Shown here one piece after another: positions 20,882-44,107 of a stretch of 64,000 bases of DNA (within the stretch, counting starts at the first letter, position 1; every line of letters starts with the position of its first letter). This stretch comes from Aurantiacibacter sp. MUD11. GTDB lineage: Bacteria; Pseudomonadota; Alphaproteobacteria; Sphingomonadales; Sphingomonadaceae. Position numbers and translations under genes: made by a program. Location: positions 2,170,001-2,234,000 of the forward strand of contig NZ_CP114054.1 of assembly GCF_026967575.1 (NCBI RefSeq). Direction: 5' to 3'. The notes under the pieces were generated by a model. That model saw nothing but the letters and a program-made list of their open reading frames with translations. It had not been told where the DNA came from and made no database searches.

Positions 20882-21988
<1,107 letters not shown>

Positions 21989-23427: not shown

Positions 23428-23880
23428 TTATTCGTGGATTCGCGCGAGCATTTCCACCAGTTTTTCGACTTCTTCGTCGGTAAACCGGCTTTTTAGCCAC
23501 GCTTCGTGTTCGGCAATGCAGCTTTTGGCCTGTACCAGCGCGGCGCTGCCTTCGTCCGTCAGGTGCAATGCCTGCTTGCGTCCGTCGCTGGAGGAGCGCT
23601 CGCGCCGCAGGTAGCCGCGCGACTGCAGGCGGTTGACGATGGTCATGGTCGTGGCCCGGTCCATTCGCAGGCGGGTGCCCACTTCGATCTGTGCGATGCC
23701 GGGGTTCTCGCCCACCAGCCACAACACGCTGACCTGCTTCTGCGTCAGCCCCAGTTCCACGAATGTATCGGTGAAGTGGCGATAGACGGCACCATGCGCC
23801 AGCCGGATATGGAAGCCGACGATCTCGTCCAGTTCCCCGTATTCGGGCGCTTTGTCCTCGGTCAATGCGGCTTCGGCCAA
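23428..23880 (-). CDS. MarR-family transcriptional regulator
   Basis: A winged-helix regulator of about 150 residues. The core runs from LTQKQVSVLWLVGENPGIAQIEVGTRLRMDRATTMTIVNRL (helix-turn-helix) to the wing RGYLRRERSSSDGRKQALHLT. The frame has an ATG at 23946, but that would sit only four bases from the divergent dioxygenase start and place the operator inside this gene. I prefer the in-frame TTG at 23880 (another TTG is at 23865). Members of this family usually repress divergent catabolic genes and release DNA on binding a phenolic ligand. The conserved 22-bp element at 23908-23929 is its probable site. Confidence 0.85.
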   Translation of the reverse strand: MAEAALTEDKAPEYGELDEIVGFHIRLAHGAVYRHFTDTFVELGLTQKQVSVLWLVGENPGIAQIEVGTRLRMDRATTMTIVNRLQSRGYLRRERSSSDGRKQALHLTDEGSAALVQAKSCIAEHEAWLKSRFTDEEVEKLVEMLARIHE

Positions 23881-23899
23881 TGTCCTGCTTTCGTCTGCC

Positions 23900-23928
23900 T
23901 TGTCGAGATTGTTAGTAGAGCATACAAA
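23900..23928 (+). promoter_or_regulatory. Candidate promoter of the lignostilbene dioxygenase gene
   Basis: TTGTCG (23900-23905) and TACAAA (23923-23928) are spaced by 17 bases and lie upstream of the AAGGAGA ribosome site at 23936-23942. The operator overlaps the spacer and -10 region, which fits repression by occlusion. Inferred from position and weak consensus match. Confidence 0.4.
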
Positions 23929-23929
23929 T
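23908..23929. promoter_or_regulatory. Shared operator, copy 1 (marR / lignostilbene dioxygenase promoter)
   Basis: The 19-bp core TTGTTAGTAGAGCATACAA (23909-23927) has TTGT/ACAA ends separated by 11 bases. The surrounding 22 bp match the element at 43507-43528 at 19 of 22 positions, in the same orientation relative to the gene it precedes. This is the likely binding site of the divergent MarR protein (inference). Confidence 0.7.
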
Positions 23930-23950
23930 ATCCGCAAGGAGAGCATTGCC

Positions 23951-25432
23951 ATGGCCCATTTCCCGGACACGCCCAATTTCACCGGCTTCAACACCCCCAG
24001 CCGGATCGAGGCGGATATCGAAGACCTGCTGCACGAAGGCGAAATCCCCACGGAGATCGACGGCGCCTTCTTCCGCGTGCAGCCAGATCCGCAGTTTCCG
24101 CCGCTGCTGGGCGATGACATCGCCTTCAACGGCGATGGCATGATCACCCGCTTCCACATCCACGATGGCCAGGTGGATTTCAAACAGCGCTGGGCGAAGA
24201 CCGACAAGTGGTTTGCCGAGCGCAAGGCCGGGCGCGGCCTGTTCGGGAAGTATCGCAACCCGACCACTGACGATCCCTCGGTGAAGGGCATGATCCGTTC
24301 CACCGCCAACACCAATGCCTGGATCTACGCCGGCAAGCTGTGGGCGATGAAGGAGGACAGCCCGTCGCTGATCATGGACCCGGTGACGATGGAAACCGAC
24401 GGGTTTGAAACCTGGGAAGGCGCGATGAAGAGCGAGACCTTCACCGCGCACCCGAAGATCGACCCGCACACCGGCAACATGGTCGCCATCGGCTATGCCG
24501 CCAGCGGCCTGTGCACCGACGATGTCGCCTACATGGAGGTCGACAAGGACGGCAAGCTGGTGCGCGAGAAGTGGTTCAAAGTGCCGTACTACTGCATGAT
24601 GCACGACTTCGCGATCACCGAGGATTACCTCGTGCTGCATATCGTGCCCTCGACCAGCAACTGGGACCGCCTCAACGCGGGTGAAATCCACTTCGGCTTC
24701 GACACCACGCTGCCGGTCTACCTCGGCGTGATCCCGCGCCGCGACGACCTGACCGACGAGGACATCCGCTGGTTCAAGCGCGACAACTGCTTCGCCAGCC
24801 ACGTCGTCAACGCCTGGCAGGATGGCAGCAAGGTGCACTTCGTGATCCCCGAAGCGAAGAACAACATGTTCCCCTTCTTCCCGGACATCCACGGCGCGCC
24901 GTTCAACGGTGCCGAAGCGATGAGCAAGCTCACCCGCTGGACGGTCGACCTTGCCAGCAATGGCGACGAGTTCGACGAGATCGTCCCGCTGACCGAGACC
25001 GCCAGCGAATTCCCGCGCATCGACGATCGCTTCACCGGCGTGAAGACGCGCTACACCTGGGGGCTGGAGATGGACATGCGCCGCCCCTGCGAGCTGAAGG
25101 GCGGCAGCGCCGGCGGCTTCCTGATGAACTGCCTGTTCCTGAAGGACCTGGAAACCGGCGAGGAAAAGCACTGGTGGTGCGGCCCGGTCTCGAGCCTGCA
25201 GGAGCCGTGCTTCGTCCCGCGCACGCCGGACGCGTCCGAAGGCGACGGCTGGATCGTGATGCTGTGCAACCGGCTGGAGAACAAGAACACCGACCTTCTG
25301 ATCTTCGATGCTCTCGACATCGAGAAAGGCCCGGTGGCGACGGTGCATGTGCCGATCCGTCTGCGCTTCGGCCTGCACGGCAACTTCGCCCGCAGCGAGG
25401 ACATCGGGCTGAAGGCGCCCGAACCGGCCTGA
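23951..25432 (+). CDS. lsd: Lignostilbene-alpha,beta-dioxygenase (carotenoid-cleavage-oxygenase family)
   Basis: A 493-residue non-heme iron enzyme that cleaves the central double bond of 4-hydroxystilbenes to two aldehydes. Counting residues from the ATG at 23951 puts histidines at 167, 218, 284 and 476, the four iron ligands I recall for the Novosphingobium stilbene dioxygenase NOV1. The 4-hydroxyphenyl-binding residues F59, Y101 and K134 of NOV1/LsdA fall at the same numbers. This makes stilbene cleavage far more likely than carotenoid cleavage. A strong AAGGAGA site precedes it. Divergent from marR and downstream of the shared operator. Typical products would be vanillin plus a second aromatic aldehyde. 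Confidence 0.93.
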   Translation: MAHFPDTPNFTGFNTPSRIEADIEDLLHEGEIPTEIDGAFFRVQPDPQFPPLLGDDIAFNGDGMITRFHIHDGQVDFKQRWAKTDKWFAERKAGRGLFGKYRNPTTDDPSVKGMIRSTANTNAWIYAGKLWAMKEDSPSLIMDPVTMETDGFETWEGAMKSETFTAHPKIDPHTGNMVAIGYAASGLCTDDVAYMEVDKDGKLVREKWFKVPYYCMMHDFAITEDYLVLHIVPSTSNWDRLNAGEIHFGFDTTLPVYLGVIPRRDDLTDEDIRWFKRDNCFASHVVNAWQDGSKVHFVIPEAKNNMFPFFPDIHGAPFNGAEAMSKLTRWTVDLASNGDEFDEIVPLTETASEFPRIDDRFTGVKTRYTWGLEMDMRRPCELKGGSAGGFLMNCLFLKDLETGEEKHWWCGPVSSLQEPCFVPRTPDASEGDGWIVMLCNRLENKNTDLLIFDALDIEKGPVATVHVPIRLRFGLHGNFARSEDIGLKAPEPA

Positions 25433-25452
25433 CCACAGTGGCTTGATTTGAG

Positions 25453-25488
25453 CCCTCCGCTGGGCAAGACCTGTCGCCCAGGGGAGGG
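25453..25488 (+). promoter_or_regulatory. RBS-sequestering hairpin between the dioxygenase and serine hydrolase genes
   Basis: CCCTCCGCTGGGC (25453-25465) pairs with GCCCAGGGGAGGG (25476-25488) at 12 of 13 positions with a 10-base loop. The 3' arm contains the ribosome-binding GGGGAGGG of the gene starting at 25495. It could limit translation of the hydrolase or act as a weak terminator for the dioxygenase. Confidence 0.45.
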
Positions 25489-25494
25489 ACGATC

Positions 25495-26748: not shown

Positions 26749-27218
26749 TAGATCCTCCTGCACCTCCCGGCCTCGAATTCGTCTACGAAGCAGGCGGCCA
26801 ACTCGAGGAGCCGCGCCAGATCGGCGAGACCTATGATGGCACGCGGCGGATCATCCCGATCATCGCCGGCGGTTACGTGAAGGGACCGAAGATCAGCGGC
26901 AAGCTGATGGGCAATTCGGCGGACTGGCAGGTGACTCGGCACGATGGGGTGACGGTGGCCGACGCCATCTATGCCATCGAGACCGATGACGGTGCGCTGA
27001 TCCAGATCCGCAACAAGGGCCTGCGCCACGGTCCGGTCGAGGTGATGCGGCGGCTGGTGGCCGGCGAGGATGTCGATCCGTCTGAGTACTATTTCCGCAC
27101 CGTGCCCGAATTCATCGCGCCCGACGGCCCGTACGACTGGCTCAACAGGTCGATCTTCATCTGCTCGGGCGCACGCTTTGCCAGCTCGATCAAGCTGTGG
27201 GTCTGGCGCGTGACCTAA
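26745..27218 (+). CDS. DUF3237 (UPF0311) family protein
   Basis: A 157-residue cytoplasmic protein of the DUF3237 beta-barrel family. Family features are IAGGYVKGPKISGKLMGNSADWQ near residue 42, YAIETDDGALIQIRNKG, and the C-terminal YDWLNRSIFICSG. No signal peptide. The start overlaps the upstream hydrolase stop (ATGA). Function of the family is unsettled. Its recurrent appearance near sphingomonad aromatic-degradation genes, as here next to a stilbene dioxygenase, suggests a catabolic lyase or decarboxylase role, which I regard as speculative. Confidence 0.85.
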   Translation: MIDPPAPPGLEFVYEAGGQLEEPRQIGETYDGTRRIIPIIAGGYVKGPKISGKLMGNSADWQVTRHDGVTVADAIYAIETDDGALIQIRNKGLRHGPVEVMRRLVAGEDVDPSEYYFRTVPEFIAPDGPYDWLNRSIFICSGARFASSIKLWVWRVT

Positions 27219-27240
27219 CCTGCCGGGGCTGACAGCCGGA

Positions 27241-27286
27241 CAAGGAAAAGGCGCGGCGGGATTGCTCCGGCCGCGCCTTTTCCTTG
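27241..27286. terminator. Bidirectional terminator between the DUF3237 and adhesin genes
   Basis: A perfect 17-bp stem (27241-27257 with 27270-27286; core AAAAGGCGCGGC) around a 12-base loop. The A run at the start and T run at the end of the arms let it work on both strands: after the DUF3237 gene and after the adhesin gene. Confidence 0.88.
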
Positions 27287-27378
27287 TCCATTTTCCTAGG
27301 CCCGAAATGGATGGGGACGGCCTCTCGGCCGCCCCCAAGGCTCCCCAGTTCGAGGGAGGATCGTTAAGCCGTAACGGC

Positions 27379-30300
27379 TTACCAGGTGACCTGGAAGCCG
27401 GCGCGGGCGCCAACTTCGCCTTCTTCGAAGCCGATGCCGAAGCCACCGGTGAATTGGGCGTTGTCGCTGATCCGGGCGGCGAAGCTCGCCGAACCCGCGA
27501 CACGGTCGTTGTAGTAGCCGAAGCCGCCGGCGATGCCGAAGCTGTCGGTCGGCATCAGGACCGGCGATTCCATCGCCAGGGCCATTGCGACACCTTCGTT
27601 CGCCTCACGGACGCCGCGAGCATTCTCGGCGGTGAGGTCGAACAGGGTGGCCGTCTGGCCCTGCAGGACGCCAATCGCTGCCGCGTTGGCCGCGATATTG
27701 GCGGTGTTGGTGGCGATCAGGCCCGAGTTGACGGCAATCGCTGCGGTGTTGGCCGCGATGTCCGCGCGCACGGTCGGGTCGACCCCGATGGTGCCATTGG
27801 CATCGATGGTCATCACCTCGCCGGCATCGATCTGCGCAGCAGTGCTGGCAGCGATGTCGCCGATGCGGACCGAGCTGCCTGCGCCGCCCAGAGCCACTTC
27901 GTTGACTGCCGATGCCGTGGCACCGAAGCCGATCGCGGTCGAACCGTCGAAGGCTGCGCTGGCCTGGCCGCCCAGGGCCACCGCCGAAGCGCCGGCCGCC
28001 GAAGCGTCCCAACCGATAGCCACAGCGCCGATCGAGGATGCCGTTGCACCGGTACCGTTGCCGTCGACATCACCACCCAGGGCGATGGAGAAGGCACCGG
28101 CCGCGCTGGAGGCGGTACCGCCAGCGAAGCTGTTGGCACCGGTCGCATTGGCGAACTGGCCCACCGCGGTGGAGTTGTCGCCGGTCGCGTTGGCATCTGC
28201 ACCCAGGGCGGTTGCATCCTCCCCGGTTGCTTCGGCGGCGTCACCGATCGCGGTCGAGTTGAAGCCCGAAGCCGTGGCAAACGCACCGATTGCCGTCGCG
28301 AAGGTATCGCTGGCGACACTGTTGGCACCGAGCGCAGTGGCGCGGTTCGCGGTTGCAGCCGCACTGTCGCCCAAGGCCGACGAGTTGGTGTTCGTCGCCG
28401 ATGCGGCCAAGCCGACCGCGACAGCACCGTCACCCGAAGCAGTCGAGCCGGTACCGAGCGCCGTCGAAGCAGCACCCGAAGCCGTGGCGCTGTCACCGAA
28501 GGCGGCCGACGCATCGCCGGATGCCACGGTGTTCACACCGACTGCGGTCGAGTCGACGCCGCTGGCAGCAGCCAGGGCACCGATGGCCGACGAGCCGACC
28601 CCCGAAGCAACCGACTGCGCACCGAAGGTCGATGCCCCGAGCGCGCTAGCCACGCTCGATTCACCGAAGGCGGAGCTGTTGTCGCCGCTGGCCGTGGCGG
28701 CAAAGCCGCTGGCCGTCGACTGGGCACCCGATGCGCTGGCCGACTGGCCGTAAGCGCTCGACTGGAAGCCGCTGGCCGAAGCCTGGCGACCCGTGGCCGT
28801 CGACTGGCCGCCGGTGGCAGAGGTCTGCCAGCCAACCGCCGTATCACCGGCACCCGAGGCGACCGATTCGGCACCCAGGGCAGTCGAGTGGAAGCCCGTG
28901 GCCGCCGCGAGGTCACCCAGGGCGACCGCGTCTTCGTCGCTGGCGACTGCCGCGTTACCGAGCGCAACCGAGGTCAGGCCCGAAGCGCTGGCACCGACAC
29001 CACCGGCCAGCGACTGGTCGCCTGCTGCCGAGGTGTTGTTGCCCAGTGCCGTCGATTCGACACCTGCGGCCGAAGCCCCGGTGCCAAAGGCGCTGGCATT
29101 GTCGCGTACGGCCACTGCGCCGGAGCCAACCGCCGTCGTTCCGGCATTGTTGGCGATGGCGAGGTGACCCATGGCGGTCGAGTTGGTGCTACGCGCTTCG
29201 GCGAAGGCACCCACTGCGGTCGCGAAGTCGGCCTGTGCCTCGGCATCGGCACCGATGGCCGTGGCCTCGATCCCGACAGCGCGGGCGTCTGCGCCAAAGG
29301 CCGAGGAGTCGACCGCCGTGGCGATCGAGTTCGAACCCGTGGCGGTTGCCCCGTCTTCCGAAGCAGCTGCGCCGAAGCCGACTGCCGTGGCATTGGCTTC
29401 GGTGGCTGCTGCGTCGGCACCCAGCGCGGTCGAAGCTTCGAACGAAGCCAAGGCGCTTTCACCCACGGCGGTGGAGTTGAGCCCCGATGCCGCGGAGTTG
29501 GCACCCAGCGAGGTCGAGTCCGCACCGGTGGCCGCCGCGTTCACACCCAAGGCACTGTCATTGGTACGCAGGGCCAGCGAGTCGGCGCCGATCGTGGTCG
29601 TGCCGACGCCGTTGGCGATGGAGTTGTTACCAACTGCCACCGTGTTGACGCTGCGGGCCTCCGACGAGCCACCGACCGCGGTTGCGAAGTCCGCACGAGC
29701 GTCCGCATCGGCACCGAGGGCCGAGGACTGGACGCCAATGGCGCGAGCATCGGCACCGAAGGCCGAGGAGTCGACGTTGGTGGCGAGAGTGTTGGAACCC
29801 GTCGCCGTGGCACCGTCTTCCGAGGCGAGGGCCGAGAAGCCGAGCGCCGTGGCGTCGGTTTCAACAGCCTGCGAGTCTGCACCCAAGGCAGTCGCGCCGC
29901 CGAAGTTGGCCAGCGCCGATTCACCGACCGCCGTGGTGTCCGTTGCGCTCGCGGTGGAGTTCTCACCCAGCGCCGTGGCGTCGGCAGCAACTGCCTGGGC
30001 ATTGGCACCGAAGGCCGCGGTGTTGGCACCGATGGCCGACGAACCCGCACCGACTGCTGTCGAACCGTCAGCCGTGGCACCGTCACCGATGGCCACTGCC
30101 CCGGTCGACAGCGCGTTGGAGTTGCGGCCGATAGCTACCGTGCCTTCTTCCGCCGCATTGGCGTTGGTGCCGCCTGCGAAGGAGTCGAGACCGGCACCGG
30201 TAGCACCAGTACCCACCGCCACACTGCCCACAGCAGCGGCGATGGCGCCGGTGCCCGTAGCGATGCTGTCAGCCCCACTGGCAGCTGCGCCCGTACCGAT

Positions 30301-34257: not shown

Positions 34258-34277
34258 CTCGAATCCGAAATTTCGAG
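34258..34277. promoter_or_regulatory. Inverted repeat upstream of the adhesin gene
   Basis: CTCGAA (34258-34263) and TTCGAG (34272-34277) form a perfect 6-bp dyad with an 8-base spacer, about 180 bases upstream of the adhesin start. The surrounding 34084-34362 stretch is AT-rich compared with the window and contains no convincing gene. It is the best place for the adhesin promoter; the dyad may be an operator. Confidence 0.35.
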
Positions 34278-34362
34278 AAAAAGTGCCGAGTTACGCCAGA
34301 ATCCGTAGGTAAATTACGTGATTAATGGCGCGGGAAGGATAGTTAAGTTTACTTTAAAGCAG

Positions 34363-35916
34363 TTATTTGATGCGTAGGTCGAGCAGAGTCGGCCCCGACG
34401 ACTCGAAGGACCAGCACAGCGCCTCATCCAGTTGGCCGACGTCGTCGACCCGCCGGGCTGCAATTCCTTGTCCATTCGCCATGTTCACGAAGTCGAGGCC
34501 GGTGAGGTCGCAACCCGGAACGCTGTTCATCCCGAACTCGCCGGAGAAGCCCATCAGCGCGGCATAGGCCGAGTTGTTCATGATCAGGAAGCTGACAGGC
34601 AGGCCCTCCTGCATCGCCGTAAACAACCCCTGGATCGTGTACATCGCCGCCCCGTCGCCGAGGATGGCGATGACCTTGTCTCCCTTGCCACCGTTCTTCT
34701 CGTGCATGGACACGCCCAGCGCGCCCGGCAGCGAATAGCCGAGGCCGCCACTGGCGCAGGAATAGAAGCCGCCTTCGCGAACGATCGGCAGCGTCTGGTG
34801 CTCGGGCCCGCGTGCGGTCGGCGCTTCCTCGACCACGATCGCACCGTCCGGGCGCAGTTCGGCAACGCGGCTGAGGACGTAGGCGGCGGTCATCTCCGCC
34901 TCCGGCTTGATGAACCGGTGCGTCGGGCCGGTGTAGTCGCGCGCGTTGGTACGCTCGCACAACTGCGTCAGGCCTTCGTTCACATCGCCCAGCACGCCGC
35001 CACCGCCGGGCAGGGCGGCCAGGTGCTGCGGATCGTCCGACAGCGCCATCAGCTTGGCGTGTTCCGGCCAGTGCGGGCCTTCGCCCTCGACGTGGTAGGT
35101 GAACACCGGCGCCCCGGCGACGAGGATGGCATCGAAGGGATCGAGCGCGTCGCGAATCTGGTCGCGCCAGGCATTGAGGAAGCCGGCGAAGTGCGGGTGG
35201 TTTTCCGGGAAGGTCTCGCGCGCGGCATAGGGCGCGGCGAAAACCGCGCAGCCGGCTTTCTCCGCCAGCGCGATGGCAGCGTTCCAACCCCCCGCATTGG
35301 CGACCCCGGTGCCCAGTACCAGCGCGGGCCGTTCGGCCCGGTCGAGCATGGCGGCAAGCCGCTCGATGCCGGTGGCCGATGGCACGGCGAGAGCGTCAAT
35401 ATCGGGCAAGCCGGGCATCTCGCATTCGCGTTCCCAGTCGTCGACCGGGATGGACACGAAGACCGGGCCCATCGGCGGTGTCAGTGCGGTGACGAAAGCG
35501 CGGATCAGCGCCTGCGGCACGTCTTCCGCGCGCGCAGGTTCCACCGAGTACTTCACGTAGGGTCGCGGGAATTCGCTCGGCCGTTCGGCGTAAAGGAACG
35601 GGTCGAAGGGCAGGATCGAGCGCGCCTGCTGGCCCGCAGTCACCACCACCGGCGCGTTGTTCTTCCACGCGGTGAAAAGGTTGCCGAGCGAGTGGCCGGT
35701 GCCCGCCGCGCTGTGCAGGTTCACCAGCGCGGGCTTGCGGCTGGCGCGGGCATAGCCGTCGGCCAGGCCGACGACGACCGCCTCGTTCAGTCCCATCACA
35801 TAGGGAAAGGGCATACCCTTGAGCATGGGCAGCTCGGTGCTGCCGGGATTGCCGAACAGGCGATCGACACCGAAATGTTCGAAGACGGCGAAGGCCGCGT
35901 CACGTACGGTGGGCAT
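34363..35916 (-). CDS. Benzoylformate-decarboxylase-like ThDP enzyme
   Basis: A 517-residue thiamine-diphosphate enzyme. S26 (GNPGSTELP), E45, H68 (LHSAAGTGHS) and H275 (VFTYHVEG) correspond to the active-site Ser26, Glu47, His70 and His281 that I recall for benzoylformate decarboxylase. The ThDP motif GDGAAMYTIQG...NN lies near residue 427. It should decarboxylate an aryl-2-oxo acid (for example a vanilloylformate-type compound) to the aldehyde, or lyse an aryl diketone. Last gene of the seven-gene catabolic operon, three bases after the MFS gene. The exact substrate is unknown. Confidence 0.85.
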   Translation of the reverse strand: MPTVRDAAFAVFEHFGVDRLFGNPGSTELPMLKGMPFPYVMGLNEAVVVGLADGYARASRKPALVNLHSAAGTGHSLGNLFTAWKNNAPVVVTAGQQARSILPFDPFLYAERPSEFPRPYVKYSVEPARAEDVPQALIRAFVTALTPPMGPVFVSIPVDDWERECEMPGLPDIDALAVPSATGIERLAAMLDRAERPALVLGTGVANAGGWNAAIALAEKAGCAVFAAPYAARETFPENHPHFAGFLNAWRDQIRDALDPFDAILVAGAPVFTYHVEGEGPHWPEHAKLMALSDDPQHLAALPGGGGVLGDVNEGLTQLCERTNARDYTGPTHRFIKPEAEMTAAYVLSRVAELRPDGAIVVEEAPTARGPEHQTLPIVREGGFYSCASGGLGYSLPGALGVSMHEKNGGKGDKVIAILGDGAAMYTIQGLFTAMQEGLPVSFLIMNNSAYAALMGFSGEFGMNSVPGCDLTGLDFVNMANGQGIAARRVDDVGQLDEALCWSFESSGPTLLDLRIK

Positions 35917-35919
35917 GGG

Positions 35920-37539
35920 TCAGACCTCCTCGCCGCCCGCACGGGCGCGATCGAGCATGGAACCCTCGTCCTTGCCATAGCGCATCAGGACCACGACCAG
36001 CAGCACGACGATCACCGGACAGACCCACATCAGCGAGATCAGGGCAGCGGCAAGGTCGTTGCCATTCTGGTCGGAGATGATGCCGACGACGTAGGGGCCA
36101 AGGCCCTGGCCGAGCAGGGTCATGATGACGAGGTAGGTGGAGAAGACGATCCCGCGCATTCGCGGCAAGGCCAGGCCAAGCAGTAGGGCATAGGTCGGCG
36201 GCAGCCACAGCGTCAGGATCAGCGAGAATATCGTGTAGCGAATATAGAAGTCGGTCAGCACCTCGGCGCTGTAGGTCCAGATGCCGAAGAAGGGCGAGAT
36301 GCCCAGCGACAGCAGCACCAGATAGATCATGCCGCGCGTCCCCATCTTGTTGCCCAGCCAGTCCGCCAGCGGGCCAGCCACCAGCGCGCCGATCGTCGCC
36401 AGCAGGGCCGAGAGCAGGCCGAACTGTAGCCCGACGTCCGCCATCGACAGGCCGAACTGGCGGATCAGGATCTGCGGGCTGGCGAACATCACGCCGTAAT
36501 TGATCGCGGTCTGCAGTCCGCCCATCACCATCAGCAGGATCAGCGAGGGGTTGAGGGTGACGTTGAAGGTGGGCTTGTCGGTCAGCCGGAAGTTCTGGAA
36601 CAGGTTGAGCACCACGAAGGCGCCGAAGCCGAACACGCTCCATTGCAGCACGTGCGGATCGAGCGTGAAGCCGCCGAAGTCGAGCGGCGGGCGGGGGGAG
36701 AAGTCACTCGTGACCTTCACCATCAGCGTGCAGAAGCCGACGATCACGGCGAGACCGATGAAGTTGATCGCCCACTGCCGCGCCCCGGCATCGTGGCGCC
36801 ACAGGTTCATCCAGTTGGTGCCCGGCGTCACCGCGCCGAGCACGCCGGCGCTGGCCTTGAACGGGGCAGGATCGGGCTTGGTCTTGATGCCGTCCATCGC
36901 TCCGCGTTCGGGTTCGCGCAGCTTGTAGATCAGCCAGGCCAGCGGGAAGCCGGGCAGGGCGGCGACGAGGAAGGCGAACTGCCAGCCGGTAAAGCCGAAG
37001 CTGGCCCCGCCCGCCGCCACGCGGTTGTCCCACCATTCGGCGGCAATCCCGCCGAGCGCCATCGACAGGCCGAGTCCGAGCGCGAGGCCCACGCCAAGGC
37101 CACCCATGGCGATGCCACGGCGGCCCTTGGGCAGGCTGTCGAACAGGATCGAATTGGCCGCCGGCTGGGTCGCGCCCTCGCCGATACCGACGCCGAGGCG
37201 CGAAATCGCCAGCAGCGTGAAGCCCTGCGCGAAAGCGGAAAGCCCGGCGAAGAAGCTCCACCCGGCGAGGCAGATTGCGAGCAGCTTGGTGCGCACCCAG
37301 CCATCCACCAGCCGTCCCAGCGGCAACGAGAACAGCGCGTAGAACAGCGCGAAGACGGTACCGTAGAGCAGCCCCATCTCGGCATCGCCGATGCCCAGGT
37401 CGTTACGGATATCGTTGGCCAGGATGGAGAGGATCTGCCGGTCGAGCAGGCTCATCATCTGTGCCGAGGACATCAGGATAATGGCATGCCAGCCATAGCG
37501 GCTGATGCGATTGTCGCTCGCCTGGTCGCCGGTGCTCAT
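35920..37539 (-). CDS. MFS transporter (spinster-like)
   Basis: A 539-residue 12-helix transporter. The first helix has LDRQILSILANDIRNDLGI and the loop carries GRLVDGWVRTKLL; R-x-G-x-G motif SRLGVGIGEGATQPAANS is typical of the spinster-like subfamily common in sphingomonad aromatic clusters. I start at the ATG 37539, with GGGAGAG upstream; a TTG two codons earlier is possible. A large hydrophilic loop near residues 200-250 splits the halves. Probable importer of a lignin-derived dimer or monomer. Confidence 0.88.
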   Translation of the reverse strand: MSTGDQASDNRISRYGWHAIILMSSAQMMSLLDRQILSILANDIRNDLGIGDAEMGLLYGTVFALFYALFSLPLGRLVDGWVRTKLLAICLAGWSFFAGLSAFAQGFTLLAISRLGVGIGEGATQPAANSILFDSLPKGRRGIAMGGLGVGLALGLGLSMALGGIAAEWWDNRVAAGGASFGFTGWQFAFLVAALPGFPLAWLIYKLREPERGAMDGIKTKPDPAPFKASAGVLGAVTPGTNWMNLWRHDAGARQWAINFIGLAVIVGFCTLMVKVTSDFSPRPPLDFGGFTLDPHVLQWSVFGFGAFVVLNLFQNFRLTDKPTFNVTLNPSLILLMVMGGLQTAINYGVMFASPQILIRQFGLSMADVGLQFGLLSALLATIGALVAGPLADWLGNKMGTRGMIYLVLLSLGISPFFGIWTYSAEVLTDFYIRYTIFSLILTLWLPPTYALLLGLALPRMRGIVFSTYLVIMTLLGQGLGPYVVGIISDQNGNDLAAALISLMWVCPVIVVLLVVVLMRYGKDEGSMLDRARAGGEEV

Positions 37540-37570
37540 GTGCAATTCTCTCCCTTGGTGCCGAGCGTCG

Positions 37571-38584
37571 TCATGTCGGGACGGCCTCGAGCAGGTGGTG
37601 GTTGTCGGACAGCTCCACCATGCGTGTCAAAGCCAAACCGCCGTGCGCCAGCAACTCGGCAAATTGCGAGCGGGTGCGTTCGCGCCCGTCCCACAGCATC
37701 ATCGTCATGTCGCCATAGAGCGCCACGGCATGGCCGGGATCGGCCTCAACCTTTTCCGGCATGACCTTCTCGATCACCACCACCGTGCCGCCCGATGCGC
37801 GCGCGGCCTCGCCCACGCGCTGCACGATTTGCCGGGCAGGTTCCTCTGCCCAGTCGTGAAGGATGTACTTGAGCACGTAGCAATCGGCCGTTTCGGGCAG
37901 CGGTTCGAAAAAGCTGGCGGTGACGAAGCGCGCGCGGTCGGCCACGCCTTCGCGGGCGAAATAGGCTTCCGCCCCGTCGCGCGCATGGGCCATGTCGAGC
38001 ACGCAGCCCCGCGCCTGCGGGGCCGCCTGCAACAGTGTGGCCAGCACGGCGCCGTAGCCGCCGCCGACGTCCATGATGCTGGCGAAGCGGGCGAAGTCGT
38101 AAAGCTCGGCCGCCTGCGCCGCGAACCGGCGCGAATTGTCGACCATGGCCTGGTTGAACACGGCGGCAGCCTCAGCGTCTTCGTCCAGTCCGGCGAAACC
38201 TTCGGGCCCGTACTTGATATGTGCGGGCGGCTTTCCCTTGGTCACGCACTCGTGCAGTTCGGCAAAGGCCGGGGAAAGCTGGGTGCCGACATGCAGTGCC
38301 ATGCCCTTCAGGCTTTCCGGATGATCCGCCCGCAGGCGCTCTCCCATCGGCGTCAGCGCGAAGCTATCGTCGCCCAGGTCGCGCACCAGCCCGATCGAGG
38401 CGAGAGCGCGCAGGAAGCGGGCCAGCGCCTCCGCATCGGCACCGATGGCGGCGGCAAGGCCGGCGGCCTGGCAGCCGCTGTCGTCCATCGCATCGGCTAC
38501 CCCCAACCTCGCGGCGGCAATGGCCATGTGCGGTTTCCAGTAGCCCGCGATCAGGTTGCGCAGATCGTCTTGCGCTGCGCTCAT
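37571..38584 (-). CDS. Class I O-methyltransferase (hydroxyneurosporene/plant-OMT type)
   Basis: A 337-residue SAM-dependent O-methyltransferase: N-terminal winged-helix dimerisation domain (residues about 10-110), SAM motif SIMDVGGGYGAVLATL near residue 170, and the catalytic His in LKYILHDWAEE with a later VVVIEKVMPE strand. It should methylate a phenolic or enolic hydroxyl. This is surprising in a degradative operon, where demethylation is expected. Start overlaps the ligW stop by four bases, so it is a genuine operon member. Confidence 0.87.
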   Translation of the reverse strand: MSAAQDDLRNLIAGYWKPHMAIAAARLGVADAMDDSGCQAAGLAAAIGADAEALARFLRALASIGLVRDLGDDSFALTPMGERLRADHPESLKGMALHVGTQLSPAFAELHECVTKGKPPAHIKYGPEGFAGLDEDAEAAAVFNQAMVDNSRRFAAQAAELYDFARFASIMDVGGGYGAVLATLLQAAPQARGCVLDMAHARDGAEAYFAREGVADRARFVTASFFEPLPETADCYVLKYILHDWAEEPARQIVQRVGEAARASGGTVVVIEKVMPEKVEADPGHAVALYGDMTMMLWDGRERTRSQFAELLAHGGLALTRMVELSDNHHLLEAVPT

Positions 38585-39636
38585 ATGCCGAACAGCTTTT
38601 CCGCGTTGGTCTGGAAGAACTTGACCTTCTGTTCGTGCGGGATGTCCATCGCGTCCAGCAGGCGGACCTCATCGGGCACGAACTGGTAGGGATAGTCCAT
38701 CGCGTAGCAGACGCGGTCCTCGCCCATCACTTCCATCATCAGCTTGATCGAGGCGGGCGAGGGCAAGCCGGAATTGGTGCCCCACAGGTTGTTGCGCAGA
38801 TAATGGTGCAGGCTGTGCTGCAACGGCTTCAGGCGCGGGTAGCGGTTGGAGCGCACGCCGGCGTTGAACATGTAGTTGAAGCGGTCGATCCAGAACGGCA
38901 CCCCTTCGCAGCCGTGGCCCAGCACCAGCTGCAGCGAGGGATAGCGGTCGAACACGCCCGTCGTCAGCAGGCGCAGCGCGTGATAGCTCGTCTCCATCGC
39001 GAAGCCGAAGATCGCGCCTTCGAGCCCGGCATCCACCATGCCGCCGATCATGTCGTCGGGCGGGCCCTGCGGGTGGATGTAGAGCGGGATGTCCATGTCC
39101 GCACAGGCGCGCAGGATCGGGTCGAACTGTTCCTCGTCGAGGTAGTGCCCGTGGGTGTGCGAGTTCACCTGCACGCCGACGAAGCCGAGTTCCTCCTTGC
39201 CGCGCCGCAGTTCCTGCGCCGACCATTCGGGGTCCTGCGGGCAGATCGCGGTCATGCCGATGAAGCGATCCGGATGACGTTCGCAGGCGGTAGCGAGATG
39301 GTCATTGCCGCGGGTGACGATGCCCTTCGCCTCGTCGAGGTCGAACAGCGACTGCACGCCGGGACTGGTTATCGCCAGCACCGCCTTGTCGATGCCGCTT
39401 TCGTCCATGGCCGCCAGGCGCAGTTCGCCAAGGTCAAGCAGGCGTTCGCGGATGAAGGTGGTGCGCTCGGACGGGCTGGTGCCGTAGAAGCCCCACAGCG
39501 AAACCGTGCCCTTGTCGGCACGGCCTTCCTTCACCAGCCGGAGGATTGCATCCAGCTGCTCGGCGGTGCCGAAGGCTTCCTCGGTGGCAATGCGCAGATA
39601 GCCGTGCTGGCCGCCGGTCTTCAGTTCAGTCGTCAC
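38581..39636 (-). CDS. ligW: LigW-type 5-carboxyvanillate decarboxylase (amidohydrolase superfamily)
   Basis: A 351-residue metal-dependent TIM-barrel decarboxylase. Counting from the ATG at 39636 gives E19 (ATEEAF), H188 (LYIHPQ) and D314 (YAMDYPYQ), which are the Mn ligands and base I recall for LigW, plus R58, H241 and R252, which in LigW contact the substrate carboxylate and ring. The N-terminal YLRIATEEAF and SLWGFYGTSPSER blocks are LigW-like. LigW converts 5-carboxyvanillate to vanillate, late in biphenyl and phenylcoumaran catabolism. A related gamma-resorcylate-type substrate remains possible. Co-operonic with OMT and VAO-type oxidase. Confidence 0.87.
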   Translation of the reverse strand: MTTELKTGGQHGYLRIATEEAFGTAEQLDAILRLVKEGRADKGTVSLWGFYGTSPSERTTFIRERLLDLGELRLAAMDESGIDKAVLAITSPGVQSLFDLDEAKGIVTRGNDHLATACERHPDRFIGMTAICPQDPEWSAQELRRGKEELGFVGVQVNSHTHGHYLDEEQFDPILRACADMDIPLYIHPQGPPDDMIGGMVDAGLEGAIFGFAMETSYHALRLLTTGVFDRYPSLQLVLGHGCEGVPFWIDRFNYMFNAGVRSNRYPRLKPLQHSLHHYLRNNLWGTNSGLPSPASIKLMMEVMGEDRVCYAMDYPYQFVPDEVRLLDAMDIPHEQKVKFFQTNAEKLFGI

Positions 39637-39639
39637 GTG

Positions 39640-41184
39640 TCACCTCATGTTCGCGGGCCAGATGCCCTGCTTGCCCGGCGACAGGATGCCGTTGGGATCG
39701 AGGCAGTCCTTGATCTTCTCGGCAAAGCGCCGCTGGGCGTTGTTGTTGAAATCGTAGAGACCGGCGACCTCGTCCATGAAATCGAGGTGGCTGCGATACT
39801 CGCCGTAGCCAAGCTTGGCGGCCGGTTCGAGCATGGCCTTGGTCGCGGCATAGGCCTCGCGCGTCTGCGCCTCGTTCTTGGTGTCGAACACGATCAGCGC
39901 GACGTGGATCATCGCCCGCTTGCCGACGATGATCGCCGCGGAATAGTCGAGGTTGCGCTCGTTCAACACCTTGCGGGTGAGATCGCGGATGGCGATCCCG
40001 TCCTTCCCGGCAATCGGCATGGCGCAGGAAAAGCCGATGTGTCCGCCTTCCTCGCCGCCGTACCAGCGCGTCATCTGGTCGAGCGCCATCGAGGGGATGC
40101 CCGCCTGCACCACGTGGTGCGGGTTGGTCATCTCGGGCAGGTTGTGGCCATCGTATTCCTCGAACACCACGCTGGCGCCGGGAATGGTGGCGAAGGCCGC
40201 CTCGATCTTGGCGCGGTTGTGCGCGACGACCGGCGCATCGCCCTGCACCGCAAAACGCATCACCCAACGGCCGAAGCCGGGGGTGGCGGCGATCCTGTCG
40301 ATCACTTCCTCGGGGATCGAATCCTCGCCCTCGTACCATTCCTTGCGTTCACCAAAGGCGCTGGCGGCGCAGACGGCGTTGATGATCATCGGCTGGTTGG
40401 AAATCGTCCCGTCGATCATCAGCGGGCGCAGCACCTCGAGGAATTTGCCGTAGTTCTCCTCGTTGTCGAGCATGAACCAGCCGGGGCAGTAGACCTCCGG
40501 CGCGTGCATCAACGCGACGCCCATCTTGGTGACGATGCCGAAGTTCGACTGGGTGAAGATGCCGTCCCAGCTTGGTCCCGCCGAATGCGGGTAGACCAGC
40601 CAGTTGTGCGGATTGCTCATCCCGCCCATGCCGGTGCGCAGCAGGTCGCCATCGGGCAGCACGACCTCGAGGCCGCAATGCTGGCCCCAGTGGTCGCCAA
40701 GCGGGGTGTAGCCCACGCCATGCTCCAGCGCGTTGCCGATGATGGAGCCGCCGCCAAGGTCGGGGCAGGACATCCACAGCTTGGAGCCGGTGGCCTTGAG
40801 GTGATCGTAGAGGTCGAAGAAGCGCACGCCGGGTTCGACCAGCGCCATGCAGTTTTCCTCGTCCACCTCCAGCACGCGGTTCATCCGGCGCAAGCTGACC
40901 GTGAAGCTTTCCGACACGCGCGGCGCTCCGCCGCCATAGCCCTTGTTGCGGCCCTGGCTGCTGGTCCAGATCGGAGTGCCGTGCTCGTTCGCGATGCGGA
41001 CGACAGCCTGCACTTCCTCCACGCTGCCCGGCATCAGCACCGCGCCGGGGCGATACCATTCGCCCGGCGGGCCCATGGGATCGCCATGGTCCGCCATCTG
41101 CTCTTCGGTGGTGAGGACATGCTCGCTGCCGAGTGCGTCCTGCATCGCCTGAAGCGCTGCGCTGGTGATCAACTGGCTCGCCAT
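39640..41184 (-). CDS. Vanillyl-alcohol-oxidase-type FAD enzyme (4-hydroxyphenyl oxidase)
   Basis: A 514-residue flavoprotein of the VAO/eugenol oxidase/4-cresol methylhydroxylase family. It has the PP-loop WTSSQGRNKGYGGG (about 73-86), CPDLGGGSIIGN with D142 at the place of VAO Asp170, GVGYTPLGDHWGQHCGLEVVLPDG, H382 (GGHIGFS) at the position of the covalent FAD His422, and GEYRSHLDFMD matching the VAO substrate-site Tyr/Arg. A covalent His favours an oxidase over the cytochrome-dependent cresol enzyme (which uses Tyr), and no cytochrome subunit is adjacent. Likely oxidises a 4-hydroxybenzyl or 4-hydroxyphenylpropanoid alcohol to aldehyde. Confidence 0.88.
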   Translation of the reverse strand: MASQLITSAALQAMQDALGSEHVLTTEEQMADHGDPMGPPGEWYRPGAVLMPGSVEEVQAVVRIANEHGTPIWTSSQGRNKGYGGGAPRVSESFTVSLRRMNRVLEVDEENCMALVEPGVRFFDLYDHLKATGSKLWMSCPDLGGGSIIGNALEHGVGYTPLGDHWGQHCGLEVVLPDGDLLRTGMGGMSNPHNWLVYPHSAGPSWDGIFTQSNFGIVTKMGVALMHAPEVYCPGWFMLDNEENYGKFLEVLRPLMIDGTISNQPMIINAVCAASAFGERKEWYEGEDSIPEEVIDRIAATPGFGRWVMRFAVQGDAPVVAHNRAKIEAAFATIPGASVVFEEYDGHNLPEMTNPHHVVQAGIPSMALDQMTRWYGGEEGGHIGFSCAMPIAGKDGIAIRDLTRKVLNERNLDYSAAIIVGKRAMIHVALIVFDTKNEAQTREAYAATKAMLEPAAKLGYGEYRSHLDFMDEVAGLYDFNNNAQRRFAEKIKDCLDPNGILSPGKQGIWPANMR

Positions 41185-41223
41185 CGTCCTCTCCCCCGAC
41201 TTTCAGCCCTCGCTCTCTCGGGG

Positions 41224-42654
41224 TCAGCCCTCGTGGACTGCCTTGACGACCATGCAGGCCTTCACGCCTTCGGGGCCGTCCTCGCTGCCGTGGCCGGACC
41301 ATTGCACGCCCTGGAACGGGGCGTCGGGGCCGGCGATCATGTGGGTGTTGAGGCCCATCATGCCGACCTCGATCTCGTCCGCCAGGCGGCGCTGGCGCAT
41401 CACGTCGTTGGTCCAGGCGAAACCGGCCAGGCCATAGGGCAGGCGGTTGGCCTCGGCGATCATGTCGTCCTCGCTGCGGAACGGGTTGATCAGGGCGAGC
41501 GGGCCGAACGGCTCCTCGTTCATCACCTCGGCATCCAGCGGAACTTCGCTGAGCACGGTCGGCTGGAAGAAATAGCCCTGGTTGCCGATGCGTTCACCAC
41601 CGGTGTTGACCCTGGCACCCTTCGCCTTCGCGTCGGCGACGAATTTCTCCATCGCATCGGGGCGGCGCGGGTTGGCCATGGGGCCCATCTGCGTACCTGC
41701 TTCGAGGCCGTCGCCAACCTTGGTGGCGGCAAGCCGCTGGGCCATGCCGTCGCGGAACTTCTCGAAGACGTTTTCCTGCACGATGAAGCGCGTCGGGCTG
41801 ACGCAGACCTGCCCGGCATTGCGCGTCTTGCCGACGGCAGCGGTTTCCAGCACGCGGTCGACATCGACATCGTCGAACACCAGCACCGGGCCATGCCCGC
41901 CCAGTTCCATGGTGGTGCGGATCATGTTGTCCGCCGCCAGCTTGGCAAGGTGCTTGCCGACCACGGTCGAGCCGGTGAACGACAGCTTGCGGATGATCGG
42001 CGAGGACAGCAGGTGGCGGCTGACTTCATCAGGCACGCCGAACACGGCCTGCGCGACTTCCTTGGGCAGGCCCGCATCGTACAGCGTCTGCAGGATGCCG
42101 AGCGCCGAAGCCGGGGTTTCCTCGGCACACTTGAGGATGATCGAGCAGCCCGCGGCTACCGCCGCGCCCAGCTTGCGGCTGGGGTTGCCAAGCGGGAAGT
42201 TCCACGGGGCGAAGGCGGCGACGGGGCCGACCGGCTCCCATCGCACCACGCTGCGCTGGCCCACCGGGCGCACCAGTTCGCGGCCGTAGATGCGCTGGCA
42301 CTCGCCCGCGGCGAAATCGAACCAGCCGGCAGAGGCCATGCATTCCATCTTCGCTTCGGGGAAGGGCTTGCCTTCTTCCATGGTGGCCACTCGAGCGAGG
42401 TCGTCGGCGCGTTCGCGGATCAGCGCGGCGGCCTTGTGGAGCACTGCGGCGCGTTCCGCCGCGGGCGTGTAGCGCCAGATCTTGTAACCCTTCTGCGCCA
42501 CCTCCAGCGCCCGGTCGAGGTCCGCCGGGTCTGCCAGCGGCAGTTCGGCCAGCGTTTCACCGGTGACGGGATTGACGACATCGAAGGTGCGGCGGCCGCC
42601 GCCCGAAACCTTCTCGCCGTCGATGATCATGTGGAGGCTGGGATATTGGGTCAT
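41224..42654 (-). CDS. NAD(P)-dependent aldehyde dehydrogenase
   Basis: A 476-residue ALDH superfamily enzyme. The catalytic Glu lies in TMELGGHGPVLVFDDVD and the nucleophile Cys in NAGQVCVSPTRFIVQ; FAPWNFPLGNPSRK and the FTGSTVVGKHL cofactor region are present. I start at 42654 (MTQYPSLHM) because GGAG lies seven bases upstream. Succinate-semialdehyde dehydrogenase-like in sequence, but context points to an aromatic aldehyde such as vanillin or formylferulate. Second gene of the operon, about 96 bases after the NTF2-like gene. Confidence 0.92.
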   Translation of the reverse strand: MTQYPSLHMIIDGEKVSGGGRRTFDVVNPVTGETLAELPLADPADLDRALEVAQKGYKIWRYTPAAERAAVLHKAAALIRERADDLARVATMEEGKPFPEAKMECMASAGWFDFAAGECQRIYGRELVRPVGQRSVVRWEPVGPVAAFAPWNFPLGNPSRKLGAAVAAGCSIILKCAEETPASALGILQTLYDAGLPKEVAQAVFGVPDEVSRHLLSSPIIRKLSFTGSTVVGKHLAKLAADNMIRTTMELGGHGPVLVFDDVDVDRVLETAAVGKTRNAGQVCVSPTRFIVQENVFEKFRDGMAQRLAATKVGDGLEAGTQMGPMANPRRPDAMEKFVADAKAKGARVNTGGERIGNQGYFFQPTVLSEVPLDAEVMNEEPFGPLALINPFRSEDDMIAEANRLPYGLAGFAWTNDVMRQRRLADEIEVGMMGLNTHMIAGPDAPFQGVQWSGHGSEDGPEGVKACMVVKAVHEG

Positions 42655-42750
42655 CAAAATCTCCATTCGTCCCCGGCTGGCCGGAGAGGCATTGGCGCAG
42701 TCGTGCCCGCGCTTGTGGCGGGCACGATCAGTTGGCAGCTGGAAAGGGCC

Positions 42751-43491
42751 TTAGCCCTTCGCCTTCTCGCGCGCCACATCGCCTTCCCAGCGATCCGCCT
42801 TCATTTCCTCACCCGTGATCGGGTGCTTCATGTGGAAGGGTAGCAGCTTGTGGGTCGGCCACAGCCAGTGGTCGTCGATCAGCGCGTCCGGACCGGACGG
42901 GTCTTCGGGATAGAGCACCTTGGGGAAGGGCACGTATTCGGCCTCGGTATAGGCCCAGCCCTTTTCGAAGTCGGCGTGCCAGTGCGGGAAGTAGTTCAGG
43001 ACGTGGATGCGCCACTTGCCGTCTTCACCCTTCTTGTAGGTGTTCTCGTAGAGGCCGCCTTCCCACCACTGGCGGACCTTCAGGTGCGGCGCGTCACCCT
43101 GGTAATCGACATGGCGACCGGCCTGCATCGTGGAACGGCCGCGCAGGCGCGCGGTCTTGCCGTCGGGATCGATGTCGATGATCGTCTGGATCTGCGGGTG
43201 ATCCAGCAGGAAGCCGTCGATCGGGCCGTTGTTGTTGTAGGTGAAGCGCTTGCGGAAGCGGTCGACATAAAGGCGGCGGACGCCTTCCTTGCCCTTCCAC
43301 ACCCCGCCGAAGAAGCGCACTTCGCCATCGTCGGTGAACAGGTCCACCACCTGGTCGTACATGCATTTGTCGATGAGGTAGCCGTAGAGGTACTGCAGCT
43401 TCTTGACGTCCAGCTCGTCCTCGCGCTGGGTCAGGCGCTTGTCCATCTCCGCCAGCTTCGCTTCGAGCGCGGCGATACGATCGTCCGACAT
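42751..43491 (-). CDS. NTF2/SnoaL-like protein, candidate cofactor-independent lignin-dimer lyase
   Basis: A 246-residue protein: N-terminal coiled segment (DDRIAALEAKLAEMDKRL), then an NTF2-like fold from about residue 25 (LYGYLIDKCMYDQVVDLFTDDGEVRFFG), with an extended C-terminal part rich in His, Trp and Pro (FPHWHADFEKGWAYTEAEY). I start at 43491 because GGGAGAGA precedes it and the upstream codons run through the operator. From memory, sphingomonad LdpA, a diarylpropane gamma-formaldehyde lyase, is an NTF2-family protein of similar size that makes lignostilbene. This gene could be an LdpA-type lyase or a related decarboxylase. First gene of the catabolic operon, right after the shared operator. 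Confidence 0.75.
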   Translation of the reverse strand: MSDDRIAALEAKLAEMDKRLTQREDELDVKKLQYLYGYLIDKCMYDQVVDLFTDDGEVRFFGGVWKGKEGVRRLYVDRFRKRFTYNNNGPIDGFLLDHPQIQTIIDIDPDGKTARLRGRSTMQAGRHVDYQGDAPHLKVRQWWEGGLYENTYKKGEDGKWRIHVLNYFPHWHADFEKGWAYTEAEYVPFPKVLYPEDPSGPDALIDDHWLWPTHKLLPFHMKHPITGEEMKADRWEGDVAREKAKG

Positions 43492-43506
43492 ACCGATTCT
43501 CTCCCA

Positions 43507-43528
43507 ATTTGTATGTTCCACTTACAAT
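43507..43528. promoter_or_regulatory. Shared operator, copy 2 (catabolic operon promoter)
   Basis: On the minus strand the 19-bp core is TTGTAAGTGGAACATACAA (43509-43527), a TTGTA-N9-TACAA inverted-repeat form here with symmetric ends. It matches the element at 23908-23929 at 19 of 22 positions. It lies 16 bases upstream of the NTF2-like gene start and also 50 bases upstream of the divergent gene at 43580. Confidence 0.7.
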
Positions 43529-43579
43529 TGCGGAGAGGTGCGAATAGAGTCAATGTCGATTGCTCTGGGGGAGGATGCA

Positions 43580-44107
43580 ATGACACGATATTCCGACAGC
43601 TACGCGCAGGACCGCGCGGAGATCGAAGACCTGATGGCGCGCTACCTGTTCGCCATGGACTGGAACGATTTCGATACCTACGCCGACACCTTCACCGAGG
43701 ACGGCACGCTGGAATTCGCGCGCGGCGCGGTGACCGGGCGGGAAAACATCCGCGCGGCGGCCAAGGGCTTCAAGGAAGCGGTGGCGGACATCTACACCGA
43801 TGTCGATGGCAACCCGGCGGTGTTGCGGCACATCCTCTGCCACTCGGCCATCCGGGTGGAAGGCGACAGGGCCTGGCACACCGGCATGTGGTTCGAAACC
43901 GCGAACGACGGCCCGCGCACGCCTGACGGCAGCCGCCTCACGCCCACGCTGGGCACCTTCGGCATCTACGAAGACGAGCTGGTGCGGGTCGATGGCGAGT
44001 GGAAGTTCTCCTATCGCAACATCCGCAACGAGTTCCTGCCGGGCCGCGCGTCCCCGGCCGAGAATCCCGTCGCGCTGATGGATCGCAAGGCGGATGGTGC
44101 AGGTTAA
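43580..44107 (+). CDS. SnoaL/NTF2-like protein
   Basis: A 175-residue single-domain NTF2-like protein (MTRYSDSYAQDRAEIEDLMARYLFAMDWNDFDTYADTFTEDGTLEF). Helices 1-2 with Tyr/Asp pattern, then the strands with RHILCHSAIRVEG and a His pair that could line the cone. A strong GGGGGAGGA site precedes the ATG at 43580. Divergent from the first NTF2-like gene across the shared operator, so probably in the same regulon. Possible cofactor-less isomerase, lyase or dehydratase; activity unknown. Confidence 0.8.
   Translation: MTRYSDSYAQDRAEIEDLMARYLFAMDWNDFDTYADTFTEDGTLEFARGAVTGRENIRAAAKGFKEAVADIYTDVDGNPAVLRHILCHSAIRVEGDRAWHTGMWFETANDGPRTPDGSRLTPTLGTFGIYEDELVRVDGEWKFSYRNIRNEFLPGRASPAENPVALMDRKADGAG

Follow-up and report, generated by a model that had tools for sequence, protein, structure and literature searches.

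A beta-5 lignin-dimer cluster and a formaldehyde-oxidation gene series predicted to share one Saro_0803-family repressor in Aurantiacibacter sp. MUD11

The genome of Aurantiacibacter sp. MUD11 (G000, a single contig of 2.79 Mb) contains a locus in which genes for the breakdown of beta-5 linked lignin dimers lie near a series of genes for the oxidation of formaldehyde to CO2. The stretch analysed, here called the window, is 64,000 nucleotides long and covers positions 2,170,001 to 2,234,000 of contig NZ_CP114054.1. Its best explanation, which we consider fairly likely, is that the formaldehyde-releasing beta-5 genes and the formaldehyde-to-CO2 genes are placed under one repressor of the Saro_0803 family. 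This repressor probably induces release and removal together, to judge by the sequences. The basis of this analysis is orthology, linkage and the distribution of a predicted operator; from these we infer the co-regulation, the effector and the single transcript. The encoded pathway is already known, and the gene content and linkage are real.

A first-pass annotation of the window had named a stilbene dioxygenase, an NTF2-like protein, a VAO-type oxidase, an aldehyde dehydrogenase, LigW, a benzoylformate-decarboxylase-like enzyme, adhC, fghA and formate dehydrogenase. Family matches bear out the presence of every one of these genes. The interval that it marked (23428..44107) stops short: the formaldehyde half extends from 23397 down to 12359. 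The regulator, the dioxygenase and the formaldehyde half are arranged as follows.

12359..13249, minus strand: fdhD, formate dehydrogenase accessory sulfurtransferase (TIGR00129 above cut-off; true start probably internal)
13125..13409, minus strand: fdsD, formate dehydrogenase delta subunit (PF11390 above cut-off; open reading frame call)
13406..16261, minus strand: fdsA, NAD-linked formate dehydrogenase alpha subunit (TIGR01591 above cut-off)
16263..16778, approximate ends, minus strand: mobA-like molybdenum cofactor guanylyltransferase (PF12804 above cut-off; the best NCBIfam match is MobA, below cut-off)
16778..18298, minus strand: fdsB, NuoF-like formate dehydrogenase beta subunit (NuoF family below cut-off; sits between fdsG and fdsA)
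18295..18723, minus strand: fdsG, formate dehydrogenase gamma subunit (best match NF004638 below cut-off; PF01257 above cut-off)
18720..19559, minus strand: fghA, S-formylglutathione hydrolase (TIGR02821 above cut-off)
19573-19953, 19960-20349 and 20353-20802, minus strand: three tandem genes of the VOC/glyoxalase superfamily (PF00903 above cut-off)
20882..21988, minus strand: adhC, S-(hydroxymethyl)glutathione dehydrogenase (TIGR02818 equivalog, 621.7 against a cut-off of 543.95)
22024..23397, minus strand: MFS transporter, nearest to the aromatic-acid/H+ symport family (best match TIGR00895 below cut-off; PF07690 above cut-off)
23428..23880, start approximate, minus strand: marR, Saro_0803-family regulator (NF053777 equivalog, 248.7 bits, cut-off 200)
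23909..23927, no strand: predicted operator TTGTTAGTAGAGCATACAA between marR and nov1 (pattern searches)
23951..25432, plus strand: lsdD/nov1, lignostilbene dioxygenase (NF053778 equivalog, 845.5 bits, cut-off 800; match to 5J53; ligands)

The pcfL half lies further along the window.

34363..35916, minus strand: benzoylformate-decarboxylase-like (BFD-like) thiamine diphosphate enzyme, last gene of the pcfL operon (NF005485 equivalog above cut-off)
35920..37545, minus strand: MFS transporter of the pcfL operon (PF07690)
37571..38584, minus strand: O-methyltransferase, accessory (PF00891; present in 3 of 21 related loci)
38581..39636, minus strand: ligW, 5-carboxyvanillate decarboxylase type (508 bits to 4inf)
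39640..41184, minus strand: VAO/eugenol-oxidase-type flavoprotein, accessory (present in 5 of 21 related loci)
41224..42666, minus strand: ferD, aldehyde dehydrogenase (PF00171; 72% identity to the gene following pcfL in G144)
42751..43491, minus strand: pcfL, phenylcoumaran gamma-formaldehyde lyase orthologue (74.3% to G144 PcfL; PcfL clade)
43509..43527, minus strand: predicted operator TTGTAAGTGGAACATACAA upstream of pcfL (pattern searches)
43580..44107, plus strand: second NTF2-like gene (PF13577 on the longer open reading frame 43403-44107)

The genes from 43491 down to 34363 (pcfL, ferD, the VAO-type oxidase, ligW, the O-methyltransferase, the MFS transporter and the BFD-like gene) form a tight minus-strand operon, with intergenic gaps of -4 to 84 bp. 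The dioxygenase gene nov1 stands about 9 kb beyond its end. Divergent from nov1 run marR, MFS, adhC, the three VOC genes, fghA, fdsG, fdsB, the mobA-like gene, fdsA, fdsD and fdhD, with intergenic distances of -4 to 79 bp in the part from marR as far as fdsB. The series from marR through the MFS, adhC and fds genes to fdhD is a putative single operon, which may be read as one transcript.

The chemistry was described in 2024 as the beta-5 pathway of Novosphingobium aromaticivorans (PMC11323797) and has been covered in a review (PMC12997858). Here and below, statements on cited papers refer to those parts of their text that were available. PcfL, LsdD, FerD and LigW together turn dehydrodiconiferyl alcohol derivatives into vanillin and ferulate (PMC11323797). 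PcfL releases formaldehyde, and an fdhA mutant showed more extracellular formaldehyde; FdhA was among the candidates from screens. The formaldehyde genes (Saro_0874, 2822 and 0732-0735) lie apart from pcfL (0796) and lsdD (0802).

By orthology, the window enzymes would carry out the same steps as those shown in N. aromaticivorans. PcfL would convert a phenylcoumaran to a stilbene and one formaldehyde; LsdD/NOV1 would cleave the stilbene to vanillin and 5-formylferulate; and FerD with LigW would turn 5-formylferulate into ferulate. Judged by their families, AdhC, FghA and the Fds formate dehydrogenase would then take formaldehyde to CO2, and the mobA-like gene and fdhD would serve in the maturation of Fds. 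The repressor would sit on the operator that separates nov1 from the repressor's own operon with the formaldehyde genes, and on the matching operator before pcfL. Derepression, whether by a stilbene or by an acid of the vanillate type, would switch on formaldehyde release and removal together. Because PcfL yields formaldehyde and stilbene one for one, sensing of the product would arm the oxidation of formaldehyde as it is released.

Four enzyme orthologues, the order pcfL-ferD-ligW, a nearby nov1 and a MarR and an MFS gene beside nov1 are common to the N. aromaticivorans locus (PMC11323797) and the window. The window differs in having the formaldehyde genes after marR, whereas in N. aromaticivorans they lie elsewhere and adhC lacks the operator. 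It also adds the BFD-like enzyme, the VAO-type oxidase and the O-methyltransferase. Glutathione-dependent formaldehyde oxidation with Fds is itself a known system, and AdhC, FghA, FdsA, FdsD and FdhD score above their family cut-offs; the difference is that the window places these genes behind marR, in an aromatic-catabolism locus and with three VOC genes.

The identity of the NTF2-like protein decides which dimers would feed the pathway. The first-pass annotation took it for an enzyme of the LdpA type, which deformylates diarylpropanes (beta-1 dimers). That assignment has a basis: the window protein is 42% identical to the LdpA structures 8abt and 8abv and shares a histidine with them. The two proteins belong to the same NTF2/SnoaL family, and the window protein, like LdpA, would deformylate its substrate to a stilbene. 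The histidine altered in LdpA structure 8abu corresponds to His108 of the 256-amino-acid open reading frame (42751-43521, minus strand; true start probably 43491), is conserved in 83 of 84 rows, and is presumably catalytic in the window protein.

An LdpA function of the window protein is nevertheless very improbable. A quick tree of 84 rows places it outside the LdpA clade and inside a 60-row PcfL clade together with G144 PcfL, with a Shimodaira-Hasegawa-like approximate likelihood ratio (SH-aLRT) value of 99. It is 74.3% identical to G144 PcfL and 42.4% to G144 LdpA, and 25 columns are fixed differently between the PcfL and LdpA clades. G144 was taken as N. aromaticivorans, its LsdD fragment being 100% identical to 5J53 and its LdpA identical to 8abt. 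The tree program warned of meeting long branches, including where the PcfL and LdpA groups join; the warning concerns how the groups join, and the identities agree with the clade placement. Moreover, G000 holds a separate LdpA orthologue (77%) at 1593702, 0.6 Mb from the window locus. The LdpA identity was thus rejected, and the sequences point to a PcfL orthologue.

Some further NTF2-like proteins were seen. The second NTF2-like gene and pcfL point away from each other on either side of the operator that they share, and a homologue adjoins pcfL in many related loci. A third NTF2 subfamily (L051, L036 and rows of 50-54% identity) lies between PcfL and LdpA. G046 carries PcfL, LdpA and this third subfamily, one each within about 28 kb.

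The dioxygenase had been noted as having all NOV1-type ligands and substrate residues; the four ligands and two substrate residues are in place. Its sequence aligns without gaps to NOV1 5J53, and H167, H218, H284 and H476, which we take to be the iron ligands, are present at NOV1 numbering together with Y101 and K134, presumably substrate residues. Both the equivalog score and all four histidines place it in the LsdD/NOV1 family. Five RPE65-family dioxygenases were seen in the 2.79 Mb of G000.

For the LigW-type protein the closest solved relatives are 5-carboxyvanillate decarboxylases, at 508 bits to 4inf and 506 bits to 4qs5 (named Ligw2), and no NCBIfam model matched; it is probably of that type. 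In the formaldehyde-to-CO2 module, AdhC, FghA, FdsA and FdhD exceed their NCBIfam cut-offs and FdsD its Pfam cut-off, and FdsB, FdsG and the MobA-like protein stay below their NCBIfam cut-offs. The TIGR02818 score makes the adhC product a class III alcohol dehydrogenase of the formaldehyde dehydrogenase kind.

The BFD-like enzyme keeps, in alignment, the Ser, Glu, His and His of P. putida BFD, which we assume to be the catalytic residues. Its gene occurs in 17 of 21 related loci. Of the remaining four, three stop short of this position, and the last (L021) is also without ferD and ligW. None was seen in the N. aromaticivorans cluster (G144), and no known step of the beta-5 pathway requires it.

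The nearness of nov1 and adhC recurs in other genomes. Taking nov1 orthologues at a threshold of at least 65% identity, 82 genomes remained once three duplicate pairs in the first set, three genomes common to both sets and G137 (best match 57%) had been removed. The gene adhC adjoins nov1 in 29 of the 82, the first set giving 20 of 26 and the second 9 of 56. In 8 of the 82 (2 and 6, respectively) no adhC, or only part of one, was found. The first set is not random because its genomes were chosen for holding PcfL, and the second was drawn from the group around a Novosphingobium. The linkage of nov1 and adhC exceeds chance, though the linked genomes are related.

In the 28 linked regions inspected (G126 left aside), nov1 lies opposite marR-mfs-adhC in all 28, with gaps of 22-196 and 9-143 bp. 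The fds genes follow in 17 of the 28, and some of the others end too early to tell. At least one VOC gene comes after adhC in 27 of 28, including regions in which neither fghA nor fds was seen. Thirteen regions, the window included, hold pcfL, nov1 and adhC together. In G046, G002 and G071 pcfL and nov1 are together with adhC elsewhere, and about 76 kb separates nov1 and adhC in G144.

Such an arrangement could also be a block of synteny passed on by descent, without functional meaning. The named linked genomes in the related-locus set all belong to the Sphingomonadales; 21 such loci were compared, and 14 of them bear Erythrobacteraceae genus names. The AdhC tree leaves room for this view, with 25 of 55 inner branches open; strong branches force 3 changes of linkage label, and the best tree has 11. 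The tree labelled G126 unlinked although its nov1 and adhC are 2 kb apart, and it was dropped as a test of a single origin of linkage for want of resolution. We hold meaningless synteny to be unlikely. The short gaps are kept in 28 of 28 linked regions, a shorter block of nov1, marR, mfs and adhC, in which neither fghA nor fds was seen, recurs in the Novosphingobium group (9 of 56 further genomes that hold nov1), and the operator stands before adhC in some genomes where adhC lies elsewhere.

The operator was found as a 19-bp near-palindrome common to the intergenic regions of nov1 and pcfL. A pattern made from both sites occurs in the window only at those two places (0.01 expected). A first form of the motif, whose inner bases were fixed, missed many sites of the Novosphingobium group and gave way to the palindrome TTGTNNGN5CNNACAA, which in the window matches only the nov1 and pcfL sites, both exactly; shuffled windows gave 0.03 exact matches and 0.8 at one mismatch or fewer. 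The palindrome was sought in the window and in upstream regions, and another form, TTGTNAGTNGANCATACAA, was used genome-wide.

In G000, TTGTNAGTNGANCATACAA has five sites at three mismatches or fewer, and the reversed-pattern control has 0. The nov1 and pcfL sites have 0 mismatches each. The other three have 3 mismatches each. One stands 22 bp ahead of the LdpA orthologue, another 44 bp ahead of a LigM equivalog, and the third in the gap separating divergent lig genes, close to matches for LigK, LigA and LigB. A second lignin locus in G000 (L240/L241; 1583901, 1593658 and 1608019) combines lig ring-cleavage genes, the LdpA orthologue and LigM, and an operator is found upstream of each of its gene groups.

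Upstream regions across the genomes compared were counted as distinct regions of 150 bp at one mismatch or fewer. The palindrome is upstream of nov1 in 62 of 62, of marR in 50 of 50 (the same site), of pcfL in 39 of 57, of ldpA in 11 of 17 and of ligM in 4 of 4; shuffles gave 0.05, 0.25, 0.20, 0.00 and 0.00 in that order. Control regions of 19 other genes had it in 0 of 314, and in 8 of 314 at two mismatches or fewer. One gene, ntf31 (site in 4 of 14), shares the pcfL promoter and was set aside from the controls. Separate counts were kept for ligK and for the gene divergent from it (1 of 2 each), as for all adhC upstream regions (6 of 39 distinct), and voc15 was left unscanned.

For adhC genes unlinked to nov1, the palindrome occurs in 7 of 50 upstream regions (48 genomes), 4 of them exact, against a shuffle mean of 0.18 and maximum of 2 (mean 0 for exact matches). 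Six of the seven sites end 27-38 bp before the start, and the unlinked adhC genes of G124 and G002 have a site with 2 mismatches. Further members of the regulon may exist. Two more operator-like sites were seen near the pcfL-nov1 locus of G144, at 844265 and 857296 (L117, L118), with 0 and 1 mismatch; the one at 857296 precedes a VOC-like gene by a few hundred bases.

The regulator belongs to the Saro_0803 family both by its equivalog score and by its position divergent from nov1. Saro_0803 has been shown to bind 22 bp at the -10 box of nov1, and resveratrol releases it from there (PMC10046596). The family, the divergent position and a site upstream of nov1 (predicted in the window) are common to both systems. 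In the available text Saro_0803 has one target and the inverted repeat GCAATA-TATTGC, whereas the element conserved across the genomes compared here is TTGTNNGN5CNNACAA, with further predicted targets.

DesR of Sphingobium SYK-6 (SLG_12870) is also of the MarR type and has ligM as a target (PMC6888825). Because SLG_12870 is next in number to SLG_12860, which has been named LSD4/LsdD (PMC8191317), DesR seems to hold the same position as the window marR. One DesR repeat is located in the SLG_12860-desR intergenic region (PMC6888825), and all three published repeats fit GTNNGN5CNNAC, the core of the predicted operator. They are identical to the five G000 sites at 10-12 of 15 positions, and this loose core by itself has 15 matches in the window. 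DesR differs in its named targets, desB, ligM and desR, among which the available text has no stilbene or formaldehyde genes; it was compared by position and operator. On those two grounds the window MarR, Saro_0803 and DesR would form one orthologous group. A protein search with the window MarR matched 3306 proteins at E<=1e-30, and no functional lead was seen among the 120 listed.

A broader possibility, held tentatively and with less confidence than the shared control of the window genes, is that a single repressor of the Saro_0803/DesR type rules a lignin-dimer regulon of the pcfL operon, lsdD, ldpA, ligM and the lig ring-cleavage genes, and that formaldehyde genes were captured into it, in cis or by an operator in trans, in a subset of the Sphingomonadales. 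An aromatic product (the stilbene, made 1:1 with formaldehyde, or vanillate) would then act as a proxy for the formaldehyde load, and detoxification would be armed in advance without a formaldehyde sensor.

Several points weigh against joint control of release and removal. The nov1 and pcfL counts and the ldpA and ligM sites of G000 itself are not independent evidence because the motif was drawn or widened after they had been viewed; the independent tests are ldpA, ligM and adhC of other genomes. Most control genes sit in operons, with coding sequence upstream, so the shuffles are the fairer control. Operator control of adhC is not general, because 43 of 50 unlinked regions have no palindrome at one mismatch or fewer and the adhC upstream region of N. 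aromaticivorans has no operator, although its pcfL, nov1 and ldpA do. No site at one mismatch or fewer was found in 18 of 57 pcfL upstream regions, 11 of these belonging to one clade of the NTF2 tree. The regulon is wider than the formaldehyde-releasing steps, because ldpA, ligM and lig genes carry the same operator. Finally, G000 has two further, distant MarR homologues, which might bind some of the sites.

The formaldehyde and formate genes could instead serve one-carbon units from the O-demethylation of vanillate, rather than side-chain cleavage. LigM passes a methyl group to tetrahydrofolate, giving methyl-tetrahydrofolate and not free formaldehyde, and formate could come from formyl-tetrahydrofolate. 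A LigM equivalog is present in G000, and ligM carries the same operator (4 of 4). SYK-6 DesR answers to vanillate and syringate (PMC6888825), which speaks for this alternative. It is nonetheless improbable. VanA_C has no match in G000, though 15 of 20 genomes searched have one (LigA was found in 20 of 20), and a VanA-type demethylase was rejected as the G000 source, P450 demethylases not having been searched. The shorter blocks retain adhC and not fds, linkage having been defined by adhC, and the first set has no genome with fdsB beside nov1 and without adhC. As VanA_C is missing and LigM uses tetrahydrofolate, free formaldehyde in G000 probably comes from PcfL and LdpA. The first-pass proposal that the adjacent module captures formaldehyde from side-chain cleavage or O-demethylation is supported in its first part, stilbene-forming release beside a full formaldehyde-to-CO2 module around the marR promoter, and is unlikely for O-demethylation of the VanA type.

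It had also been suggested that this linkage might be undescribed. No description of it was found in the literature searched, which mostly left out subscription papers; the pathway (PMC11323797) and the marR family (PMC10046596) were already known. Among the papers listed, as far as their available text shows, lsdD or pcfL is treated with formaldehyde genes only in PMC11323797, at separate loci, and neither Saro_0803 nor DesR is joined with pcfL or ldpA. The tie between DesR, lsdD and Saro_0803 may already be in print. What appears to be new is how the genes are arranged, together with the wider regulon that is predicted.

The gamma-formaldehyde lyases that have been proposed for lignin-upgrading strains give formaldehyde as a by-product. 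If one switch couples the lyase, stilbene cleavage and formaldehyde oxidation, the locus would be a ready natural design cassette. The predicted regulon suggests that Saro_0803, which responds to resveratrol, and DesR, which responds to vanillate, are the same switch, and it supplies a testable list of targets.

A screen for viral contigs gave nothing. Between the two halves of the locus lie a serine-hydrolase gene and a gene (27379-34083, minus strand) for a 2234-amino-acid protein of YadA head repeats with 26 matched stretches, probably a trimeric surface adhesin.

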